Assembly: GCF_032362555.1 (NCBI RefSeq)
Contig: NC_083505.1
Coordinates: 583,001 to 647,000 of the forward strand
Direction of reading: 5' to 3'
Length of the DNA stretch: 64,000 bases
From: Amyelois transitella
Taxonomy: Eukaryota > Arthropoda > Insecta > Lepidoptera > Pyralidae
Below, piece after piece: positions 13,852 through 63,200 of this stretch. Made by a program: the position numbers and the translations under genes. Positions within the stretch are counted from its first letter, which is position 1; each line of letters begins with the position of its first letter. The notes under the pieces were generated by a model. The model saw only the letters and a list, made by a program, of their open reading frames with translations. It had not been told where the DNA came from and made no database searches.

Positions 13852-16800
13852 TCAGTGCAGCTGCTTGAGCTGCTCGTACGTGAGGAAGAAGATGACGTTC
13901 CACGGGCCCATGCGCAGCCACGTCGGCACGAAGCCCTTGTACAGCGCCAGGAAGCCCTCGTTGCGGACCGTCTGCGTAAGCGCATAAAAATATATTAATA
14001 AATTCATTCATTCATTATAATCACGTCTGTATCCCTTGCGGGGTAGACGGAGCCAACAGTCTTGAAAGACTAAATGACCACTTTCAGCTATTTGGCTTAA
14101 TGATAGAATTGAGATTCAAATAGTGACAGGTTGCTAGCACATCGCCTAAAAGAAGTAAACCAAGTTTATAAGTCTATCCCTTAGTCGCTTTTGACTACAT
14201 CCATGGGAGAAGTGATGGAGGGGTCCTATTATTTTTTCTATTCGTGCCGAGAACCACACGGAAATATTATATTAATAAATGCTGAAGATATATGCTTCAT
14301 CATCATCTTTATGGCTTAGTCATATACCTAAACCAATTGACTGACGCTTTCAAGTAACACTTAGCAAAACATAATTATATACATATAATCACGTTTATAT
14401 CCCTTACGGGGTAGACACGGCCAGCAGTCCTGAAAAGACTGACGGGCCACGTTCAGCTGTTAGGCTTACTGATAGAAATGAGAATCAAATATGTAGGACT
14501 CTTATCTATACTACAAGCTTCTAGAAATTTAACTACAGTATAAAATCTTATAGCGACAATGTTTATGAGACATACCTGTAGAAAACAGTCTACGGTTCCT
14601 CTGTATATCCTCTCGTTAGGTCTGTGCACGTGGTCCTTCACCTTTCTTTGGTTCATTAGCCGAGTCTGAAACGGACACCATCAAATATAAGAAAATTCCT
14701 CTTTTCAGAAAATCCTAATGTACCGTTACGGTCGCGATGTGAGAAACATAAATATGGTGTAATGAATATGACGCAGCTCGTGACATTGACTATTGCTAGA
14801 AGAATGCGAAGTAATTCTCTCTTGCGTTACAGCGTAATCCTGGCTTTCTCAGGAGTTTATTTGAAAGATTTGAAGTTTTTGGTCGTCAAGAGTGAGGAGG
14901 AAGTGCCACTTGCAATCTTGTTGTACGAGAAACCCCTTGTTTCAATATGAGAAATCTCTTATTTCAATATGAGAAACCTCATTACGATATGAGAAACATG
15001 AGAAACGTATCATACCATTATGAAAAACCTGTAATTTTGATATGAGAAACTTCCAATGTCGTGGCTATATTATGTTATAAAGGACGAGGACTCATTCGGA
15101 TGTCGTCCAAAGGCGTACTAGCCACGGCGCTGTCTTAATTCGCGAGCAAGCTAGACGCGAAGTGATCGCTTGGGTAAAGCATAATAACACAAAGATTAAG
15201 GACGTCTGGGTAAAGGGTCAGGTCAAAAGTACCCGAGACCGCCGAGCTTGCATGAATAGAATTATGAATGTGGATGAAGCGAAGGCAGTATGCAGAGATC
15301 GTGGCAAGCGGAAAGAGGTAGTCTCTGCCTACGCCTCCGAGAAAGAGGCGTGATTTTATGTATGTATGTACATATGTAACACAAAGAACGGCCTAGCCAC
15401 GGCGCTGCCTTAATTCTCAAGCAAGCTAGTTGCGAAGTGATTGGTTGGTGTTTCCAAGAGTGGCCGTCTCACTCGGGTATACCATAACACAAAGCACTGA
15501 CTCGGACGACGTCCAGCAGCGTACTAGCCACGGCGCTGCCTTTATACGCGAGCAAGCTAAACTCGAAGTGATCGGTTGGTCCCACACGGGCAGTTCCTAG
15601 GGTATACCACAACACAAAGCACTAACCCGGACGACGTCGAGCGGCGTGCTAGCCACGGCGCTGCTTTAATTCGCGAGCAAGCTAAACACGAAGTGATCGG
15701 TTGGTCCCACACGGGCAGTTCCTAGGGTATACCACAACACAAAGAACTGACCCGGACGACGTCGAGCGGCGTGCTGGCCACGGCGCTGCCGAGGCTGGCC
15801 AGCAGGCTGGACGCCAGGTGGTTGGCGGGCGAGTCGGCCAGCGCGGGCGCCAGGCGCCGCTTGCAGGCGTCGTAGGCGGGCAGCTCGGCGGCCGCGATCA
15901 CGGCGGCGCGCTGCGACGTGGGCGCCACGCCGCGCCACAGCCCGCGCGCGCCCTCCACGCGGTACATGTCGATGAAACAACGCACCAGGTTGCGTTTCTC
16001 ATTGCCCATCTTTAAGTAAAAAAGTTATTTCATTTATAATACTTGCCGCGTGGTTCCCGGCACCAATACAAAAAAGAATGGGACCACTCTATCTCTTTCC
16101 CATGGATGTAGTAAAAGGCGACTAAGGGATAGACTTACATACTTGGGATTCTTTTTTAGGCGATGGGCTAGCAACCTGTCACTATTTGAATCTCAATTCT
16201 ATCTTAAAGCCAAATAACTGAACGTGGCCTATCAGTCTTTACAAGACTGTTGGCTCTGTCTACCCCGCAAGGGATATAGACGTGATGATATGTATGTATA
16301 TGTATGTATAATACTTACGTGAAAGATTAATGAGCGTTGATATGTTCTGTTTAAACTACTGTAAGTACATATATTTGGATGTTCAAAAAGGTTCTCTGAT
16401 GGTCGTTTGTCCAACGAACAGTTCTACGACAAACTTTTACTAATCGAGAGATTAGCCTTCAAGACTTTTTATCTATTCAAGATGCGTGGACAGAAACATA
16501 GTAGTATATGCTGACAAATGAGTCATAGACCCAACTGATTTGCGAGTTTTAAACTCCCTTTGGCTAAACCAAACCAAAGCTCATTTATAATCCAAATATT
16601 CTTTGCTAGTTAATGCCTACGATATTATATCTCATTCAGGTCATTCACCTGATGTTTGCCTCAATTGAACCTTTAACTCTCTGGGCTCCCCCAGGATACG
16701 ATCGTAACATCTGAAGCCAAGAAATTAACAGCAAATCATTTCTTCATCATACCTGCATCCGAACTTTGAGCACATCAGTAGGATTTGCGATAGCGCTGGA

Positions 16801-19800: not shown

Positions 19801-22800
19801 ATTTACATAAACAACGAATACACAAAACATTTTTCCCGCTATAACTACATAAAATTTGCTAAATAAATCTGACTAAACGAAGTAAATAAATATTTTCGAC
19901 TTGTCATAAAACTGCGTATTATTTTACTTCCTAATAGGCGTCTTTTTTTCCTTTTTTTTTCTTCAATGACAGACTTACAAAATATGGCATCCCTACTCGT
20001 CGCTCGTTGCCCAAACAACCACGCGGACATCTCGTGATGGTAATTCGGTTAATACCGGTTCATCACCACAATCTGGACTGCATTAACGCCATAACATACT
20101 CCGCGTGGCTTGCCAAAACGCCATTCGAATTTATCCACCTCAGTATATTATGTGGATAGGTGAATCTGGGAAATTCGGGATGTTAAATTCTTTTTTTTAT
20201 ACATACATATATATAATCATGTCTACATCATGTCTATATCCCTTGCGGGGTAGATAGATCCAACCTCCTTGAAAAGACTGAAATGCCACGTTCAGCTGTA
20301 TGGCTTAATGATGGAATTAAGATTCAAGTAGTTACAGGTTGCTAGCCCGTCGCCTACAAAAAGAATCCCGAGGTTATTAGCCTATTCCTTAGTCGCCTTA
20401 TTCGACATTCTGTGTGCCGGGAACCACACGGCTTTATATTATATCCAAGTGATTATATTAAGCTTTATATTATACCTAGTAAGTAAAGTTGATGTTAGCA
20501 GGTTGGAGGAAGAAGTCGCGGGCATCACCCAGAATTTCATAAGAAAAATAATCGGAAACAAGTGACAATAACGACGTCTTTTTTTAGTCCTAAGTTATCA
20601 GGTGGGTACCCTTGGAACAGATTTTTTTTCAAAATTGGATACAAGGTGTCACTTATTGACGTCACATCATTTAAATCTAATTATAACTAACTACTACCGC
20701 TTCCAAAGCGGATTCGTTATCATATTATTGCAAAAATGCTAATTTTATTTAACTCTTGGTGTTAATTTAGTTTTCTAAACAATAAAGAGTTACGGCCTCT
20801 GTGGCGCAGCGGTAGTACGCTTGTCTGTGACATGGGCGGTCCCGGGTTCGAATCCCGGTCAGGGCATGATGAGAAAAGAACTTTTTCTGATTGGCCTGGG
20901 TCTTGAATGTTTATCTATTATAAAATATAGTATCGTTGAATTAGTATCTCGTAATACAAGTCTCGAACTTACTTCGAGGCTAACTCAATCAGTGTAATTT
21001 GTCCCGTATATATATATTTATTTAATTATTCGTCTGCACCTCGCCCCGGCTTACTTCGCACATGACTTTTCTATCGAAGACCACAGCGATAAATACACAA
21101 TATCTGATACATATGTAGCATCCTTTCCTATACGTAATTATTGTTCGCACCTTAAAATAATAATATTCAGTACTAAATGTGCCCTGTGACTTCGTCCACG
21201 TGAAATAGTTATTTTTGACATCATTGTAGCCCTCAAGGATGAATAATTTTCCCCGTTTTTTTTTTCAGATTTTCCATTATTTCTTTGCCCCTTTTAGTTG
21301 CAGCGTGATGTTATATAGCCTTAAAGCCTTCCTCGATAAATGGTCTATTCAACGCAAAAAGAATTTTTCAGATTAGTTAAACAAACAAAAAAACAAACTG
21401 TTCAGCTTTATAATATACTAGCGACCCGCCCGCGCGGGTGCAAAATTCGGAAAAAATGTATAATGTATTATACAATAAATAATACTTAGTACATTATTTT
21501 TATAAATCCTGTAAGGTTAAGCCTGCGTACGCAATGTAAGCGGCAAGAAATGTAAGAATTTACGACACCACATTAGAAACCCTGAAAATAACAGTATTTC
21601 TCCATTATTTAATAGATAATGATGATTATTATACATAAAAACCTTTCTCTTGAATCACTCTACCTGTTACAAAAAACCGCATCAAAATCCGTTGCGTAAT
21701 TTTAAAGATTTAAGCATACAGACAAACAGACTAAAATAGCGACTTTGTTTTATACTATGTAGTGATTTGTTATATAGTTTTCAAACGAGACAGAAACGTG
21801 TACGTAGTCACGCGGGGGTCCCCACTAGGCGAGGAGAGCAACGTTTGATAATACTCGACCTATTATCTTTGCGGCACTGATAACAAACAATAGATTGATA
21901 ACGATATTATAATGAAAGATTCCATCCAAACAAGGTTTTGTTTTTTATGATCCAGAGTTTACTCAAAAAGACTTTTGTAGGGATAGGCTTACAAACATGG
22001 GATTCTTTTTTAGGCGATGGGGTAGCAACCTGTCACTTTTTTAATCTCAATTCTATCGTTAAGCCAAATAGCTGAACGTGGACATTCGTCTTTTCAAGAC
22101 TGTTGGCACTGTCTACCCCGCAAGGGATATAGACGTGACCATATGTATGTATGTATGTAGACTTATGTATTTGGTCCAAAGAACAATGGACAAAATGAAA
22201 CATACATACATACACAAATCACGTCTCTTTCCCGGAGGGGTAGGTAGAGACTAAATCTTTCCACTAGCCACTACACTTCATACTTCTTTCGCTTTATCCA
22301 CTCTCTTCATGAAAGCTCGTCGATTTCGGGTACAATTGACCTGACCTTTTACCAGAACAGCCTTTTGATCATTGGCAAAAGGATATAACAAAGTAATTGC
22401 ACGATATCAGAAACATTACTCAAACGACATAGCGTGTATGCAAACGCGAAATGCGCATGAAAGTACAGATGCGTAATAAGGCTTTAGAATCCCGTGGAAT
22501 ACAGAAATCTTCATTTCAAGATAGAAGAAGATAATTTTTTCAGGGCATAGTCAAGCAGGCAAACTAATCGACCGTAAACCTTCTCCCGGCATGAAGTTTA
22601 GTCACTTTTCTTCAGTGACTTAATAGCATGATTTTTTATTTGGATAGCTATAATAAAATTAAGTGCAAGACGTAATTAAATAAGAAATTGCCATGTGGTT
22701 TCCGCCACTGTAGAATAGAACCACTCCTTTTCCCCATGGATATCGTAAAAGGCGACTAAGGGATAAGCTTTTTAACTTTGAATTCCTCTTGTAGGCGATG

Positions 22801-36147: not shown

Positions 36148-39100
36148 CTGTTTGGAGACAGTCCGGTGCCCCTGAGCCAGCTGGCCGTCGCGAAGCGCAC
36201 GCGCTTTCAAGAAAGCGTCTATTCCGTATAGCACCATCGTTAGGTACGCGAAGAACTGCAAACAAAAGGAAAATAAATAAATAATATTATAACTATCGTA
36301 TAGTAAGTATGTTTATCATATATTATTATTATCACCCACACAAAGGTTCTCCGCTTAACCCAATGGTAGACTTAGATAATGCTATTGGCATCAAGTCCGC
36401 CTATTGTACTTTACAAATTGTAATTGTTACAATAAAGAATAAATAAATAAACTATTGACGGCCTCTGTGGCGCAGCGGTAGTACCTACGCTTGTCTGTGA
36501 CACCGGAGGTCCCGGATTCGAATCCCGGCCAGGGCATGATGAGAAAAGAACTCTTTCTGATTGGCCTGGGTCTTGGGATGTTTATCTACTTACGTACATA
36601 AGTATTTATTACTAGCTTCGCGGATGTCGGTCTTCGCGTGGATGGTTTATTTCTCCATTTTGAATAACTGTGACAATGACATCTTATAAATATCTATTGG
36701 ACCCAAATACGGGTAACGAAACCTTTGTTCGCGGTTCCACAGAACAACGTCTATGGATAAAACTGAAAAATTAAGATTTATTCTTTTTCTACGTATTTTT
36801 CGCGGTCAGGCGGTCACGCGTATTAGAAAGAACGCTGGTTCGCCGTATTAAATGTTTCTCTGCAAATTGCTTATAACGACTATATCTCAAAACTTATTCG
36901 TCTGATTTATATACTGTAAATGGCAATTTTAGTCTACATGAAAAGCCGAAAGTAATAAACATATTTATTTGGATAAGGATTAATACTGAATTAAAGAAAA
37001 TTGGTTTCAAAATAACTTATGTTTATAATTAAAAAAAATAATCTTAAAAAATGAACAGAAATGTTGTTATTGTAAGTAAACCTTAAGAGATAGATATATG
37101 CTCTCGCGGACTTTTTTGTGGCAAAAAATGAGTACTTCACATCTTTAGTACATTGTTTTACTATATCTTTGTTGGTTTGCGCAGCGTTCGCGTGGAAAGC
37201 TCGCAGATGGCCGACTCATTCAACTTTCACCTGCATTGTTGACGTTTCCCGTAGGAAATCCGGGATAAAATGTAGCCTATAGCCTTCCTCGATAAATAGA
37301 CTATCTAACAGTGAAAGAATTATTCAAATCGGTTCAGTAGTTTCTGAGATTAGCGCGTTTAAACAAACAAACAAACAAAACAAACTCTTCAGCTTTATAA
37401 TATTAGTATTAGTATAGATAAAATATAGTATCGTTGAGTTAGTATCTTGTAACACAAGTCTCGAACTTACTTCGAGGCTAACACAATATGTGTAATTTAG
37501 GTACATACCTACATACATATAATCACGTCTCTATTCCTTGCGGGGTAGACAGTGCCTACAGTCTTGTAAAGACTGATAGGCCACGTTCAGCTATTTGGCT
37601 TTAAGATAGGATTGAGATTGAAATAGTGACAGGTTGCTAGCCCATCATCGCCTAAAAGAAGAAACCCAAGTTTATAAGCCTACACCTACCTATCTGTAAT
37701 TTGTCTTGTATATATTTATTTATTTCTATTTATTTCTCACTATTCCTTATTGCCGGAAACCACACGGCATATAAGTATAGTACAGTGTGAGTGACGTCAA
37801 TCAGAACCCATCTGAATCAGAACAATTTGCAGTAATCAGACGTTCATCAGAGCTTGCAAATTGTGGACTAATGGGTAGTGTTAACTGATGTAATTGTTCC
37901 GGTGAGTTGGCGCCCTGGTAGCAACCTGACGGACAGACAAGGTAACCCATCCATCTATACTAATATCATAAAGCTGAAGAATTTGTTTGTTTGTTTGAAC
38001 GCGCTAATCTCAGGAACTACTGGTTCGAATTGAAAAATTCTTTGTGTTGAATAGACCATTTATCGAGGAAGGCTTCAGGCTATATAACATCACGTTGCAA
38101 CTATTAGGAGCGAAGAAATAATGGAAAATGTGATTTAAAAAAAAACGGGAAAATTATTCACCCGTGAGGGCTACAATGATGGACAAAATAACTATTTCAC
38201 GCGGACGGAGTCACGGGCACACCAAGTGTTACGTAAACGTAAACGAAAAAATACATTTTTCTTTTAGTGCCGAGAACCACACGGCATCAATATAAATTGA
38301 AAAAAAAAATAAGACCACTCCATCTCTTACCCGTGGATGTCGTTAAAAGGTGACTTAGTAAGAAGCTAATAAAGTTGGCTTTCTCCTTTTAGGCGATTGG
38401 CTAGCAACTTATCACATTTTAATTCTAAATTATATCATTAAGCCAAACAGCTGAACGAGGCCTGTTGGTTCTCTCAAGACTGTCGGCCCTGGCTGGCTAC
38501 CCCGCAGGGGCTAAGGACGTGATTATATGTAATATGTATGAAACAATACACAGATTAGGCTAAGCATATTACGATTCTAAACTCTCCTAAACTGGCCTAT
38601 AAGAAAATTTCGACAACCTACATATTTTTTCGTCATCCGAGCAATTCATCTCTTCATCTTTAAAGTGCCGTGTTGGTTTTGTCTACCTTGCAAATGATAA
38701 AGACGTGATTATATGTATGTATAATTAAGCGATTAATCGACAGATAAATAGAAGTCCTTTCTGTCGCCAAATGGTTTGAAGATCTATGAAAAGTGCGGTG
38801 GACCGCTAAACGCACGTACATGTAAAATTATGTCCTTGTAAGATGATGATGTATGGCATCATCTTACAAGGACATAATGCACTACTCTTCTCCTTCCACC
38901 CGGCTTTAGTCCCGGTTGCATCCTCACGTATCTTAATCAAATTAAGGAAGTCCTAACAAAAGGGTCAGGTCAAGAGTAGGTACCTGAAACCGCCGAGCTT
39001 GCATGAAGAGAGTTATGAATGTGGATGAAGCGAAAGAAGTATGCAGAGATCGTGGCAAGTGGAAGGATGTAGTCTCTTGCTTACCCCTTCGGGAAAGAGG

Positions 39101-54256: not shown

Positions 54257-57200
54257 TCACCTCCTGGCGAGCACGTCCCTGACGAGCTGCGGGCCCAGCT
54301 TGTGCGGCACGTCCGCCGCGTGCGCAGCGCTGTCCAGCGCCAGCAGCGCGCCCAGCGCCGCCAGCCGAGCGCAGCGCTCGCGGGCCGCCGCCGCGCCGCC
54401 GCCGCACCACGCCGCGAGGCGACGAGCTCGGCGCTCCACCAGGAATCCGCCCATCTATATATAATAAAAACTAGAGGCCGCCCGCGACTTCGTCCGCATG
54501 GAAACCCTATCAATCCCGCGGGAACTCTGGGATAAAAAGTAGCCTATGTGTTATTCTGGGTCTTCAGCTACCTACATACCAAATTTCATGGTAATCGGTT
54601 CAGTAGTTTTTGCGTGAAAGAGTAACAAACATCCATACATCCATACAAACTTTCGCCTTTATAATAGTAGTAGGATAGGATAGGGGACAACTCATGTTTA
54701 ACACATTCACTGCCACTGTTGTTCGTTAAATCGTTTTAAGTTGATTCACGAAGTTAGCATTAAATGAAGAAGACGTCACTCTATTAGGTCATAATGGTTT
54801 AGAGAAATCATACTAAAAAATATTATCAAATCAAAAATATATTTATTTTTCTCTTTGACAGTACGTTCACAATTCATTTCTTGACTCATGACGGAACCTA
54901 TAAGTTTTTTAAACGAAGACATTACTTTTCATACAACATACATTCATACATACATTGACGAGCCATCAGTCTCATCATCTGCCTCGCGGCTCCTCCTGTA
55001 CCTCATGCTGTCTCACTCACCCTGGTGTAGTGGTGGAGCAGCACCCTGGCCTCGGCCCGGGCGGCCACATCGCTGACGAGCGCGGACAGCAGGCGCTCCG
55101 CAGAGCTCGCAGACAAGGCCTGCCTCGCGGCTTCGCTCAGCGTCTCCAGAGCTTGTGGCAATGCGCCCGCGTCGCAATCATCTTCCGCTTCATCTGTATT
55201 CACATATTGAAAAAAATATTTCAAAAGATTTGTCTCTCTGTTACGCTTTTACGACTAAACCGCTGAACTGATTTTCTGATAAATTAATAAATACATACGG
55301 GACAAATTACACAGATTGAGTTACCCTCGAAGTAAGTTCAAGACTTGTGTTACGAGATACTAACTCAACGATACTAATTTTATAACAAATACTTATATAG
55401 ATAAACATCCAAGTCCCAGGCCAATCAGAAAAAGTTCTTTTCTCATCATGCCCTGGCCGGGATTCGAACCCGATACCTCCGATGTCACGGACAAGTATAC
55501 TACCGCTGCGCTACAGAGGCCGTCACATAGATAAAATAAATAAGCTATATTTACCACCATCGCGGCCCGGGTCGGCGAGGTACTCGGCCCACGCCACGAC
55601 CTTGTGCTTGAGAGCGGCCGCCAGCGCCGCCAGCGACAACTCGTGCGCAGCCACGAACGCCGCTGCGGCGGAACCCAGGCCTGTACCCATTTATATTTAT
55701 TTATTTTATTTTATACATTGGATTATATGATCAACTGAAAATATTACAATGATTAGATTATAAAATAAACATTTAAAAGCCAATTTCAGGTCTTCTCTAA
55801 TAAAAACATTATAAAATAAGAACCCCTCAGACCCTCACTTCTCCCTTCTCCCCCTCTGACCCCTCACATCTCCCTTCAACCCCCCTGACCCCTCACATCT
55901 CCCTTCACCCCCTCTGACCCCTCACTTTTCCCTTCAACCTCTCTAACCCCTCACATCTCCCTCCAACCCTTCTGATCTCTGTCTACCCAGTAAAGGATAA
56001 AAAAAGTATAATTATGTAGACAAACATACCCGCGGCACACGACTGCAGCTTGTCGAGTTCCCGCCGCGAGCGACACAGCGGCGCGGCCTCGGCGACCGCT
56101 TCGGCCGCGAGCCGCTCCGCCCACTCGCCGCCCGCTTCCGCTTCGTTCATGTGCGCCTGCGCACGGTATAGATAAATCACATTGAATTGGTAAAAAAAAG
56201 TGGCGATAAAAATGAGAACTTTACCGCACCCTGTATGTACCCGAAATTCTAAAACAAGACAGACTTATCGATCGGTGATCAACCAATAGCAGTGAAGAGT
56301 CTAAATCGCGCAAGTAAAGATTTCACGGATTGGAGCATAAATAGAATTTCCGGTTCAACGTCGTTTCGACGTCGTCTGTCGTGCGGTTCCTTAGGCGTCA
56401 CACCAGCCTACAGGAAGATCTTTCCTTTGTGGCGGTCGAGCCGAAACATTGCTCCCGCTACGAGTAGTTTCAAGTCCTCTCTTCACCGACAAGGGTTAGC
56501 TCTTAAATTTAATTAGGAAAGTTTTCAAACTTAATGAATTAACACCAAAAACAAGAATGAAGTCATCACGCCTATTACAAAGTCGCTAGAGAAGAATAGC
56601 TCACCAAGAACAGACTCCTTTGCGCCTCCACATCCCTGTTGAGCCGGCTGTTGAGCGCGAGCGCGGGCGCCGCATCCGCCGGGCCGCGCGCGGGCGGCGC
56701 GGGCAGCGGCAGCGCGTCGGGCGGCGCGGCGCGCACGCAGCGGCGCAGCGCCGCGCACGCGCGCTCCAGCAGCGCGCCCGCCTCGTTCAGCACCGCGCAC
56801 GCGCCGTCCACGCTGCCCGTGGAGATGCTGCGTCTACGGCAAACGGATTGCTTTCAAATATATTTTTTGAAACTTTAATTGAGGTTGGGATTAGCGAGAT
56901 CAGCATGATTTTATATGCAATTTGGTTTGGTTCTTGTCGTGTGGTTTCCGGCACTAGGCCCATTCCGTATCTTCGCCTTATGGATTTAGATCTGGTAGAA
57001 GCACCGAGGACGCTGTAGCTGCTTTCACAAAATTAGTCGTATCCCAAATTGATGCAGGTAAAAAATGTATCTCTGTTTTTCTTGATCTTAAAAACGCATT
57101 TGACACTGTCTCGGTTCCCGCACTTATTCAAAAGCTCGAGCACATAGGCATTCGGGGTACGCCCCTAAAATTATTCTCAGACTACCTCGGTGATCGTAGA

Positions 57201-60200
57201 CAGAGAGTTAAGTTGGGAGAATTCGTGAGTGGAGATGAGCCTATTACCCACGGAGTACCGCAAGGTAGTGTGCTTGGTCCAACACTGTTCCTGATATATG
57301 TATATAAACAGTCTCTGCGAGTTAAACATAGAAGGAGGTCAAGTGTTTTCCTATGCGGATGACACGGCGCTTACTTTTTATGGTGACACTTGGAAAGAAG
57401 TATACCATATTGCTGAACAGGGACTTAAAAGTGCACAAGATTGGTTGAGATCGAATTTGCTTACACTAAATAAAAATAAAACTAATTTCATCAGTTTCTC
57501 TATTCGAAACTCAACTCAACCTCCTCCGGAACTTTCTCTAAAATTACATACGTGTCAAAGGGATCGGGAACAGTGTGACTGTTACACTATTAATAAAGTT
57601 AGTTCTGTAAAATACCTTGGTGTAAATATTGATCAAAATTTTAACTGGTATTCTCATATTGAACTTATAATATCTAGAATAAGAAAGCTCACATGGATTT
57701 TCAAAAATCTTAGGTATGTTGCAAACGTTAAACTAGTCCGTAATATATATGTTGCACTGGTTCAATCTGTCATTGTCTATTGTATCCCTATCTGGGGTTG
57801 TGCTGCAAAATCCAAATTAATCGAATTAGAGCGTGCTCAGCGATCCTTACTTAAAATTATGCATTTCAAACCTTACCGATATCCAACTGACATGCTCTAT
57901 GCAGACACTAATCTACTTACAATTAGACAGCTATATATACTACACTCAGTATTAAGACAACATAAGACATTAGACTATGACAATACCATACTGAACAAAG
58001 AAGAATAAATATTATATTTCATCATGAACCAGCAAGGACTGCATTTGCATCTAATCAAAATTTCAGATTGTCCTCTTACTTATATAAACAGCTAAATAAT
58101 AAGCTAGATATATATAATAAAACTTACTATGATTGTAAACGCACATTGATATCTTGGTTGCAGAAACTTACTTATGAAGAAACTGAAGCACTTTTAACAC
58201 GAATAACTTAATACTGTATTGAAATAAATTACATATTGTAGAATTGTTTAAGCACAGATTAATACATAAATTATATCATAATAATTAAATTAATAATAAT
58301 ACCAAATGTTATTTTTAATAAAATATAATATTGTATATTTACAACTATGTTTAAATATAGCGATATATGTATGTTAGGAATCATAATAATAATATTAAGT
58401 GAGTGGCGAGTCACCACCTGCCACATAATAGTCACGTATTCATGATTATGGCAGGTGTCCGAACTTCTTCAGCAATAGCCCAGTTTAAATCCATCCAAAC
58501 GTCAACTCCATAACCCATCATCCTTTTCCTTATTTTGTAATAGCTCCACCTCCTGCCGAGACTTGTTCATGGACATATTGTCTATTGATATGGCCGGGAA
58601 CGGGTTTTGGCAGGAGAACAACATAACATCAACTTCTCCAAAGGGCCTCTACGTGTTGGATTTATATCCCCACGCAAGCCTCTCAAAAATCCGGGGTGTA
58701 TAGACCCGTGAAATCCAAGCGGAGAAACATAATTATTAATTAAATATCTAAACTTTGCATGTAATGCCATTATATTTAAAGAGCGGATCTCACCTAACAC
58801 AGGTTTTTGTAAACTTAAATGGTGAGACCCTGCTACCCACTTGTACTGCACTTGTTAAAAGGAATAAATGAATTTTGAATGGATGCCGTAAAAGGCAACT
58901 GAGAGCTTATAAACTTGGTATTCCCATTCTAGACGATGAACTAGCAACCTGTCACTACACAATTCCATCATAAAACCGTACAGCTAAAAGGAACCTACAT
59001 AATCTCTCCACCCCGCAAGGAATATACAGGGTGACATTTAAAACAACTGCATCCTTTTAAACATAGACTATACCCATGCTTCTGAGCCGTTTGAGCCTAT
59101 TTTTACTACGCTTTTATTAGCTTGGGTTGTATGTATGTATGTATGTATGTATGTAACGGAATCTTTGAGCTTAATTTTCACTGATTTCTAAACGTCTGAT
59201 CAACTTGAAACTTTGCACACGTATCAAGGACCGATGACAATGCAATATTTTGATAAGAGTTTCTCATTATCCTTATTAAAACTGCCAGGATTAATAAATT
59301 CATTTTTAGATCCTTCGTATGAGAGTAAGAGAGACAGAGATAGCACCAGTGCCAGTAATCTCCATACAAGAAACCAAGAAGTTCTGACGTATAAGGAGTC
59401 CAAAAAGAGATGTAATATATTTCCATATAATGTTACTATTAACCTGAGGCTTTTTTATTTCATCGCATCGCTCCATTTAGAATTACCATTAGAAACAATA
59501 GTAGAATTAGTAGAATATTTTAAAACAATAAAAAATATATAAGTAATAAAACAAAAGTAATAAATGAAAATTGAACACAAATTTACAACAATACAAGAAT
59601 AAAGTTACTACTTACAGAACTTTGCGATATTTAATACGTATTTAAGATATTAATGCGATTATGTAACTTTTGCATATTTATAATAGCAACACTGTAATAC
59701 TCGCTTGGAAAATGAGTGACAGTTTGTTTATTTATGTAAAATAAGTTTTGCAGTAAGTTTTGAATTCGATTCTAACACCTGTAAACTTTCTTTCTGTTTT
59801 TTTTACCGGTGCCTGTGTATTTACCTATTTGCACTTTGTTTTGTGCTGATAACTTGTCGTTATTTGGAGTTTGGAATCTTCCGTTGAGTCGAGCTTTGTT
59901 CTTCCGGATATTCGTGTGATTTTATCATCTGAGATTGGACTCTGACTGTGTTCACTGTGTTGTGCAGATATTTTGAGATAGGACTCCTGTAAAAAGTACC
60001 TGATTATTTGAGATAGGAGTCCCAAGTTTGTGTTTGTTTTTGTGAAAGACAGATTTTACTACAAAAGTGCCACGATGTCTTCAGATAAACATTGTTGCGT
60101 TCCTGGTTGTAAAGGCAGTGGAGGTATGTTTGAAATATTTTTGTTCCTGTATCAATCTGCCTCTTAATCTTGTGGTTTGATTCCTGGCAAGGCCACAATC

Positions 60201-63200
60201 GAAAATTGTTATGTTTGCTGGATAGTCAAAAATATTATTAACAGTGATTTATCACTATAAAATTCTTTTCAACTGGGTTTAACAATCATCATACATACAT
60301 GCATACATATAATCACGTCTATATCCCTTGCGGGGTAGACAGAGCCAACAGTCTTGTAAAGACTGATAGGCCACCTTCAGCTATTGGGCTTTAAGATAGA
60401 ATTGAGATTCAAATAGTGACAGGTTGCTAGCCCATCGCCTAAAAAAGAATCATGATGATGAGAATATTATGAGATTTAATCCAATCAGGCCACATATAAC
60501 TTTAAGAAAGTTAGTTGTGAAAACCTCCGGCGATGGGCGCATGGTTGCGAAAGTCATTTCTAGTAAGATAGTTATACAGCGTAGTAGAAGTAGTAGGAAG
60601 TTAACACTTCTACCAAAAAATAATTGTATAAAAAAACTAAAAAACTAGGCGTTTTATTGCTAATCAAACTAAAAAATAGAAAATAAATAATAGTTTAAAA
60701 AAAACTAAAAAACTACGCTTTATTGCTAATCAAACTAAAAAATAGAAAATAAAATTTAAAGACAAAGGAATTATAAAACAGTAGTAGCAAGTCGAACAAT
60801 CGGTTATAGTCAATTACCTCCGATTAAAATTATAACAAAATTAAATTTATAAACAAAACAATTTAAATCAGAGTAAAAAGCGTGGGGTGCATTTTACTTC
60901 ATTTTCATAACTCTCTTGTCATAAATATATGCTAATAGAATGATTTTAATATTTACTACATCAGGCACCCCACGCTTTTTACTCAGATTTCAATTGTTTT
61001 GTTTATAAATTTAATTTTGTTATAATTTTAATCGGAGGTAATTGACTATAACCGATTGTTCGACTTGCTACTACTGTTTTATAATTCCTTTGTCTTTAAA
61101 TTTTATTTTCTATTTTTTAGTTTGATTAGCAATAAAGCGTAGTTTTTTAGTTTTTTTTAAACTATTATTTATTATTTAAACGTCATCATTTTCACATTTA
61201 AAAAACCCTCAAATACTACGTCACACGCTTTATTAAAGACCAATACTACAAAAAGAAATTAAAACTAAACATGTAAATAAATGTCTGAAAAATAAATTAT
61301 TTTTCTAGTATCAAGATCAAGTAAAGTATAGTTGTCGAAATCGCTCAGCTGAATGAATTGTGTCGTTTACCTTTGAATCTTACGCGTCGCTTTTCCGCCG
61401 GCCGGAGTGATATTACGTATTTAGGATCGTGGATTTTGATACTTTAATTTTTTTTTCGTACTTTCTAAAATATGAACCGATATTTTTCTTTTAACGTTTT
61501 TTAGTATCCTTTAGATGAGTACACTTATCAGTTAAATTTATGCAGTTGAATTAAAAGTCACCATGTAGACGTCATCATTTAAATAAATAAATAAGACAAT
61601 CAAGCCAACCATCCCAAAGTTCTTACCTGATGACCTTCCTGGCGATGAAGAACACGTCGTCCACGAGGCTCGAGGTCACAGCGCCCGCACTCGGCGCGGC
61701 CAGCTTCAGCGCTTTGTTCACGCTCTCCTCTAAGAAGAATCTAGAACAAGTATTATATAGCGTTTCGATAGAACATCCGAGTAAAATCTATACTAATATT
61801 ATAAAGCTGAAGAGTTTGTTTGTTTGTTTGAACGCGCTAATCTTAGGAACTACTGGTTCGAATTGAAATTCGAGTAAAATCTATACTAATATTATAAAGC
61901 TGAAGAGTTTGTTTGTTTGTTTGAACGCGCTAATCTCAGAACTACTGGTTCGAATTGAAAAATTGTTTTTGCGTTGAATAGACCATTTATCGAGGAAGGC
62001 TTTAGGCTATATAAAATCACGCTGCAACTATTAGGAGCAAAGAAATAATGGAAATGTGAAAAATATCGGGGAAAATTATTCATCCTTGAGGGCTTCAATG
62101 ATGCCCAAAATAACTATTCTACGCGGACGAAGTCGCGGGCACAGCTACATACATACATAATTACATACATATAATCACGTCTTCATCCCTAGACAGAGCC
62201 AACAGTCTTGAAAATTCTGATGGGCCACGTTCAGCTATTTGAATTACTGATAGAATTGAGATTAATATAAAGTGACAGATACTTAATTTTATTGTGGCGA
62301 CATCTCTTAGCCAAACGTCACAACAGCCAATCACACAACAAATGTCAATCATCGCGAAGAAATTGACGCGCTCAACCAATAGCAGCGAAGAATCTACATC
62401 GCGCAAGCAAAGATTTCATGGATTGGAGAATAAATACAACCTCCGACTCAACATCGTCTGTCGCGCGGTTCCCCAGGCATCACACCAGCCTGGCGGAAGA
62501 TCTTCTCTTTTATTATTAAAAAAGCGATTGAAAGAAGTATATTATAATTTACATAATTTCATTTGAGAAATAAAAGGATTCCATTGAATTGAATTCAATT
62601 AATATCCTTTATTTGATTTTTACACTTTAAACAAATTACCTTCTTCTCTCACATTTGGCGATGTTCTACACCTAGATATTGACTGACTGACCAGTTACCT
62701 CTCTAAAGCTAAGTACTGCCCCAGCAGGTCTTGCGCAGTCCTCGTCAGCTCGCACTTGGCGATCGTCTTCTCAATTTGTTCTGAAGCCGCCTTCTGATTC
62801 GCTTCATCCAGGGTTGACGCATCGGCCTAGATTACAATTTTAAACATTTGTAAATTATTATTTTTTAATTTAATAAAAAAGAACTAAGTATATTTACATA
62901 TAAATCTACAAATAAGCCTAAATATAAAACTAACACTTATTTACAAAAATGCACATCCCGGCAGATCAAAGACAAGTGCCCAGAAGGCTGGCAGCAAAAG
63001 ATAAGCATTGCCACGTTGAATGGCAATGCTTATCTTTTGAGCGAGCTAAAAACCAGCCTTCTGGTCACGAGTAACCTCGACAATTTCCGGGCGACGACGT
63101 CGTAAATTATTTATAACTAAAAATACCATGTAAAACAAAACCAACTGTGTGGCAAATACCATCAAAATAGGTCCCAGTAGCTTAAAGTCTTCTTCTTTCT

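Follow-up and report, generated by a model that had tools for sequence, protein, structure and literature searches.

The long, nearly perfect hairpin in an intron of COG4 of Amyelois transitella, within the 64,000-nucleotide stretch of DNA analysed here (the window), is very probably the 3′ end of a young, non-autonomous transposon of the Helitron2 type, whose two arms would have been kept matched by template switching.

The hairpin and its copies in the genome

The inverted arms, as delimited by self-comparison and copy alignments, lie on the plus strand at 60682-60890 (left arm, arm 1) and 60965-61173 (right arm, arm 2, whose outer end is the 3′ terminus of the element), measure 209 nt each, differ by two mismatches (60864 and 60870), and flank a 74-nt spacer (60891-60964, plus strand) that is inverted in some other copies. 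With looser ends, the pair extends to 214 nt at 98%. The preliminary description of this DNA had given about 205 bases, two mismatches, and a separation of 74, which these measurements bear out. The predicted RNA fold of the region has a free energy of −309.9 kcal/mol versus −75.4 ± 5.3 for 100 shuffles (z = −44.6); the hairpin is hence real and far beyond chance, an origin that the comparison with shuffles rules out. Next to it, at 60615-60681 on the plus strand, the outer end of arm 1 is partly repeated in direct orientation (75 nt at about 91%); neither this duplicate nor the 2.07-kb repeat that starts at 59100 is mentioned in the preliminary description.

The setting of the hairpin in COG4, also proposed there, is upheld by peptides from the flanking minus-strand exons: cut and joined by eye, they give a match to Pfam COG4_m (PF08318) that crosses the intron (E = 4e−16); five single-exon readings taken alone gave no Pfam match. 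The exon upstream, in the sense of the gene, of the intron bearing the element was placed by translation and COG4_m at 61627-61739 on the minus strand, with boundaries drawn by eye. Pieces of a reverse transcriptase (RVT_1) in overlapping frames are found in the same intron at 56958-58008 on the plus strand.

Further copies of an arm, for which the preliminary description had advised a search, are plentiful. The arm search covered the A. transitella genome (327 Mb in 33 contigs) and gave at least 118 matches; among 504 candidates, 40 were scored, and all 40, the window included, hold a perfect arm, while a search with the spacer gave 448 first-look candidates, of which 40 were scored. The dispersed copies with a perfect arm rule out the hairpin as a unique feature of COG4. 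In the 28 loci compared (L001-L028), similarity continues beyond the hairpin, from window positions 59094-59128 to its outer end; L009-L028 align with the window from these positions to the hairpin at 97.9 to 99.0% identity (L011 in two pieces, and with right ends that vary). The copy alignments thereby delimit an element of 2.07 kb at 59100-61173 on the plus strand, the window copy of which we classify as a probable non-autonomous Helitron2-type element. Junction sequences differ among the copies, with the exception of L007, which has its right flank in common with the window up to 61567. In the body of 30 aligned copies, 66 of 42,931 sites (0.15%) depart by substitution from the majority letter of their column, the copies being biased to young ones because 28 were chosen by arm identity. 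For the same reason, the low divergence between the arms of L001-L028, which were picked among the 40 scored of 504 candidates, is partly built in.

Searches that did not use the arms gave a broader picture. The left terminus, allowing up to two mismatches, occurs at 528 places in the genome (276 + 252), and a reversed-pattern control at none. Among five loci fetched by it, two (L043 and L046) have the palindrome, L047 has a single arm, and the stretches read of L044 and L045 do not reach that far; among the first seven loci fetched by the spacer, five have both arms, and L048 and L049 lack the left arm. In L047 (C2:1818800-1821300) the body is joined directly to a single right arm without a long palindrome, which could reflect either a deletion or an older form, with nothing to favor one over the other. 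L048 (C3:1762100-1762574) and L049 (C1:2126400-2126850) are miniature copies from which the left arm is gone, their left part being fused at short homologies to the spacer and right arm. Because these three loci lack the left arm, the palindrome may not be essential. At L006 (C13:1537060-1540264), two copies stand head to tail, with the 3′ end of one followed by a few T/A and then by the TTACTACGC of the next; a copy here has a 206-nt stem without the two usual mismatches.

Termini, internal parts, and class of the element

The 5′ terminus, located by anchor search, consists of TTTTT followed by ACTACGCTTTTATTAGC (59100-59121, plus strand). The ACTACGCTTTTATTAGC segment (59105-59121) is the 5′ member of a pair of asymmetric terminal inverted repeats, whose complementary 3′ member, GCAATAAAGCGTAGT, was read directly from the sequence at 61129-61143 (plus strand), ending 30 nt before 61173. 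Of 29 loci, 22 showed a left junction when (TT)ACTACGCTTTTATTAGC was used as an anchor, and 7 were not long enough to include it; at least five T residues precede ACTACGC in 19 of these 22 junctions. Downstream of the 3′ repeat is a short hairpin, TAGTTT-TTTTT-AAACTA (61148-61164, plus strand), with a weak 6-bp stem (TAGTTT/AAACTA; DNA fold, −2.5 kcal/mol). A DNA fold of the 5′ end did not reveal the 5′ hairpin that is a feature of Helitron2, the predicted fold involving the 5′ inverted repeat having −0.8 kcal/mol.

The outer end point of arm 2 differs among copies. Among 29 loci (the window plus L001-L028), 16 follow the window sequence through the right arm as far as 61169-61173 and 9 as far as 61155-61160, and in the other 4 this agreement breaks off within the arm (at 60998, 61000, 61097, and 61123); the short 3′ hairpin is without its right half in the 9 ending at 61155-61160 and in the 4 truncated loci. 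The right end points that we looked at fall in T-rich places. In the available text on Helraiser (PMC4778049), the 3′ hairpin is described as a terminator and 3′ ends as truncated or bypassed at some rate; the variable and truncated right ends seen here therefore fit a rolling-circle element. No target-site duplication was noticed by eye at the copy junctions or at the only usable empty site, that of L023, a paralogous site of 76% identity that fits insertion into a T tract without such a duplication.

Within the element, just inside the 5′ end, lies a (TATG)n microsatellite (59127-59155, plus strand) whose length differs between copies. Farther in, translation indicates the start of a short exon-like open reading frame followed by GTATGT (60075-60123, plus strand), which the copy alignments span; this had been described as a THAP-type exon. 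It is indeed exon-like, lies inside the element, and is carried by the copies as cargo; the THAP name is unconfirmed, as the 30-aa reading of 60075-60123 gave no Pfam match. A copy of an abundant repeat, which we take to be SINE-like, occupies 60290-60451 on the plus strand and is present in element copies. The same repeat, recognizable by CATACATA..CACGTCTATATCCC..GTAGACAGAGCC, is represented by dozens of partial copies in the 64 kb (e.g., 16147-16309 and 37502-37663 in addition to that inside the element).

The ends, the position of the junctions at T tracts, and a RepHel gene next to the palindrome (see below) together point to a non-autonomous Helitron of the Helitron2 type. Helitron1 was considered and set aside, its 5′-TC and CTRR-3′ ends being absent; the ends here are TTTTTACTACGC and ..ATTATT(TATT).

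RepHel genes and a related palindrome

Locus L041 on contig C11 has an intact RepHel open reading frame of 1,897 aa, whose product matches, in Pfam, STPR repeats, DUF6570, Helitron_like_N (4.7e−25), PIF1 (2.7e−31), and Pif1_2B (1.4e−7); its helicase part matches 7lcc. We also read in it, by eye, SPHLHMVVW, presumably an HUH-like motif, and HYIGKYISK, presumably Y2-like. The C-terminal endonuclease domain that marks Helentrons gave no Pfam match in the 1,897-aa protein. Some 70 nt beyond the end of the open reading frame begins a match, at 95%, to window positions 60638-61176, the 3′ part of the element. The stem of the palindrome at this locus runs for 206 nt without interruption, although both of its arms have 8 changes with respect to the window in the range counted (defined below). 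A non-autonomous copy that breaks off in arm 2 lies just upstream of the gene; for the RepHel copy itself, no left end was found. From the shared end, we infer that the element is most likely mobilized by a RepHel such as the 1,897-aa C11 protein.

The genome has 73 matches to Pfam Helitron_like_N, 59 of which are on a single contig, C32; such a concentration could mark a W chromosome or heterochromatin, though this is a guess. Twelve other Rep loci (L029-L040) were read over some 3.5 kb each, and none contains the ends or the palindrome of the present element. The C-terminal half of the RepHel, used as a query, gave at least 56 matches (530 candidates), including the one intact copy of L041 and, on C32, a decayed relative; the others are more distant helicases, together with 27 fragments of the last 63 to 75 residues or so at 76 to 79% identity. 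Searches of viral contigs with three patterns found nothing, and for the RepHel one stretch of a viral contig matched the pattern and encoded no relative.

A different palindrome occurs downstream of a RepHel C-terminal fragment at L060:235-621 (C1:858014-858400). Its arms of 37 nt are 100% complementary, with a 313-nt spacer, and reach the end of the stretch read. Its inner CGTGGGGCACG core resembles the CGTGGGGTGC core of the window element, and a 38-nt match lies outside the palindrome; there is otherwise little similarity between the two. This one locus suggests that the palindrome architecture may be older than the present element family.

Matching of the arms

To avoid the bias that comes with selection by arm identity, we counted paired changes in 12 hairpins that were not chosen in that way, having been found via the left terminus (L043 and L046), the RepHel gene (L041), or the spacer (L050-L058, of which L055-L058 were chosen because of their inverted spacer). 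Omitted from the count were the first hairpin of L041 (truncated), L047-L049, L059 (rearranged), L044, and L045. The counted range, cut by hand, comprises arm positions 28 to 178 (to 172 in L055 and 138 in L058). In these hairpins, 23 distinct change entries with respect to the window are paired identically in both arms, and 6 are unpaired. Among the paired entries are an insertion of 12 nt and deletions of 6 nt and 1 nt, each mirrored exactly, the last in L052 alone among the 12 hairpins; the 23 are not independent, as several are common to copies and 6 of them are the one 6-nt deletion, and the changes of L043 and L054 are present in other subfamilies too. Nine paired entries occur in a single copy. 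When 24 changes were placed at random, a null whose inputs are these nine hand-derived entries and the 6 unpaired ones, at most 2 pairs arose in 100,000 runs.

In the counted range, all 6 unpaired entries have the changed letter in arm 1, a term defined relative to the window arm that carries no direction of change. A confinement of unpaired changes to arm 1 failed a recount over the whole stem; such a bias is not general because L046, L055, and the first hairpin of L041 show other differences. Thus, beyond the counted range, 8 nt are deleted from arm 2 of L055 but not from its arm 1, and small differences near the outer end occur in L046, L056, and the second hairpin of L041. Arm against arm over the whole stem, there are 0 differences in 207 nt in L052, 0 in 140 in L058, 1 in 209 in L057, and 1 in 203 in L051; in the second palindrome of L041 (210), the sole difference is 2 inserted nt at the outer end. 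The arms of L046 differ in 7 of 210 columns, and those of the truncated first hairpin of L041 (L041:1-287, C11), upstream of the RepHel gene, have 4 differences in 55 nt. Near the loop, 32 of the 47 spacers tabulated show mismatches at positions 21 and 27. Correction of the arms is hence not complete.

The preliminary description held that inverted arms so alike are young or selected. This pair of options is incomplete, given that in most of the copies not chosen by their arms, the arms are matched through diverged subfamilies. The copying of one arm onto the other apparently keeps them matched, and the hairpin would be nearly perfect because its arms appear to copy each other.

Inversion of the spacer

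In 33 of 41 scored spacer matches (from the 40 scored of 448 candidates), a listed left terminus lies within 4 kb. The spacer has the same orientation as in the window in 28 of these 33 and the opposite orientation in 5, one of which is in L059, a locus that holds both orientations. In the flipped loci L055-L058, which represent at least three arm subfamilies, the spacer is the exact inverse of that in the window, and L046, a locus retrieved via its left terminus, has a flipped spacer too. At position 21, A/T takes the place of T/A in L046, L055, and L057 (3 of 5 readable flipped copies), where it was flipped along with the centre; it reads T/T in L056 and A/A in L058. In L059, arm 1 and the spacer are followed by some 50 nt of arm 2, after which come an inverted spacer and then arm 2 in full, an arrangement that looks like a frozen template switch. 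Taking these observations together, the paired changes, the flips, and the one rearranged copy strongly indicate that arm copying occurs.

Proposed mechanism and alternative explanations

By analogy with the family to which the element would belong, Rep would nick its 5′ terminus, the helicase would peel off a single strand, and the 3′ subterminal repeat and hairpin would act as a terminator, giving imprecise ends in T-rich places. The further step that we propose is that a polymerase may switch template between the 209-bp arms, copying one onto the other and at times flipping the spacer. Polymerase template switching predicts just this combination of arm homogenization with spacer flips, and the available text of a study in yeast (PMC8604942) describes inverted repeats that are homogenized in their arms and inverted in their spacers by this means. 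We would guess that the copying takes place in a single-stranded transposition intermediate, not at ordinary replication forks. A more speculative and rather unlikely version is a self-renewing end, in which the folded-back 3′ end of the single-stranded intermediate would prime on the left arm and rebuild the right arm in a cycle like that of parvoviruses; the failure of the arm-1 confinement in the recount makes it somewhat less probable. Fold-back priming of this kind would heal truncated ends, equalize the arms, and flip the centre; it fits because the right-arm ends vary and the commonest uncorrected mismatches are near the loop, and also because of the spacer flips and the palindrome in the relative L060.

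The chief competitor for the matching of the arms is natural selection on the paired structure, in its function as a terminator, without any copying. The 3′ hairpin that ends transposition in Helraiser, according to the available text of PMC4778049, and the palindrome of the relative L060 speak in its favor. We nevertheless regard it as unlikely, since the 12-nt insertion, the 6-nt deletion, and the 1-nt deletion are mirrored exactly in both arms, and selection would neither flip the spacer nor produce L059. Still less probable is a dedicated hairpin-RNA (hpRNA) locus, in which the COG4 pre-mRNA or a transcript of the element would form a 209-bp duplex from which Dicer-2 would generate small interfering RNAs (siRNAs) acting in trans. 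The fold is very stable, the hairpin lies within a COG4 intron, and the palindrome would be transcribed whichever strand is read; indeed, siRNAs are possible because a transcript through the intron would fold. The hairpin is, however, part of a dispersed repeat and hence no dedicated locus, and the homogenization and flips are explained without RNA. With dispersed copies, a transposon end suffices as explanation and nothing points to a dedicated hpRNA gene, so that the siRNA source considered in the preliminary description is not supported. The wealth of dispersed copies is also one of the two observations that, taken together, would count against such a source according to that description.

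The preliminary description had also entertained the foldback end of a DNA transposon, and in this it came close: the hairpin does appear to be a transposon end, but one of an element that looks rolling-circle and whose palindrome is confined to one of its ends. A cut-and-paste element of the foldback or MITE type, moved by a DDE transposase, e.g., a THAP-bearing P or Kolobok element, might be read from the long inverted repeat and from the THAP-like exon, as that description called it, inside the element. We consider it highly improbable, as the palindrome is one-ended, no target-site duplication was noticed, the THAP assignment is not confirmed, and the gene found beside the same palindrome encodes a RepHel. 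Candidates of this sort were accordingly rejected, those with foldback or terminal-inverted-repeat structure because both arms are at the 3′ end and no duplication was noticed at the junctions, and P/Kolobok because the THAP-like exon lacks Pfam support and the palindrome is at one end only. Because assembly errors are known to arise at long inverted repeats, the perfect palindrome might be an artefact; the chance of this is close to negligible, since dozens of loci have the palindrome, with changes particular to individual copies and with junctions that differ in sequence.

Comparison with known systems

In the available sections of Bao and Jurka 2013 (PMC3627910), Helitron2 elements have short asymmetric terminal inverted repeats, the 3′ one lying 15 to 30 nt from the end and followed by a short hairpin, and a 5′ end that begins with T after a T tract. 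The present element is similar in its inner 3′ inverted repeat with a short hairpin after it, in its start at a T tract, in the lack of a noticed target-site duplication, and in its many non-autonomous copies. Unlike the short terminal hairpins of Helitron2 in those sections, its whole 3′ terminal region is half of a palindrome with 209-bp arms and a spacer that flips. Again unlike Helitron2, it has no clear 5′ hairpin, the class being assigned from termini and domains rather than from a RepHel tree. With the Helentrons, DINE-1, and HINE elements, as portrayed in the available text of Thomas 2014 (PMC4067079), it shares subterminal inverted repeats, an internal microsatellite, a 3′ palindrome, and T-rich insertion with variable numbers of T. 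The 3′ palindrome of a mite HINE in that text is 5 to 10 bp, versus the 209-bp arms here, and Helentron proteins are depicted with a C-terminal endonuclease, none of which was found in the C11 protein. Helraiser, a Helitron1 (PMC4778049, in the text available), is comparable in its 3′ hairpin, its truncated and diversified 3′ ends, and its RepHel protein; it has a 19-bp palindrome and 5′-TC and CTAG-3′ ends, which the present element lacks.

Identical arms with inverted spacers are also the outcome of the template-switch homogenization of inverted repeats in the available text of PMC8604942 and PMC8794818. Those precedents concern short repeats in yeast genes and RNA hairpins, whereas here it would act on the terminal palindrome of a mobile element, in several copies. 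The available literature gives Helitron 3′ palindromes as short terminators of about 5 to 20 bp, and among the titles and abstract beginnings listed by a search of the open-access literature in PubMed Central, none described a Helitron with a long terminal palindrome, which is a weak sign of absence. In the present family, such a hairpin would have expanded into a long palindrome, homogenized and flipping, in several subfamilies, and the relative L060 seems to have a palindrome as well. The terminal hairpins of parvoviruses, which have a different replication system, occur in flip and flop forms. Like them, the element ends in a palindrome with a centre that is found facing either way.

These features have several consequences. 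An siRNA gene should not be assumed wherever an intron holds a long perfect hairpin, and in elements of this sort the identity between the arms is, even when high, an unreliable guide to age. With its many copies, of which a fair share are young, the family amounts to a natural experiment on arm copying in an animal genome, and it offers a test case for whether arm copying occurs during rolling-circle transposition.

Other features of the window

The element may itself lie in a host repeat. Possible terminal repeats of the latter are found on the left at 59025-59060 (plus strand) and on the right at 61532-61567 (minus strand), a pair of 81% over 36 nt whose outer right limit is also where the flank common to L007 ends. 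Six pieces of the sequence gave no match in published papers. Rfam over the window gave nothing except a tRNA, just above the threshold, which ARAGORN predicted as tRNA-His(gtg) at 20795-20866.
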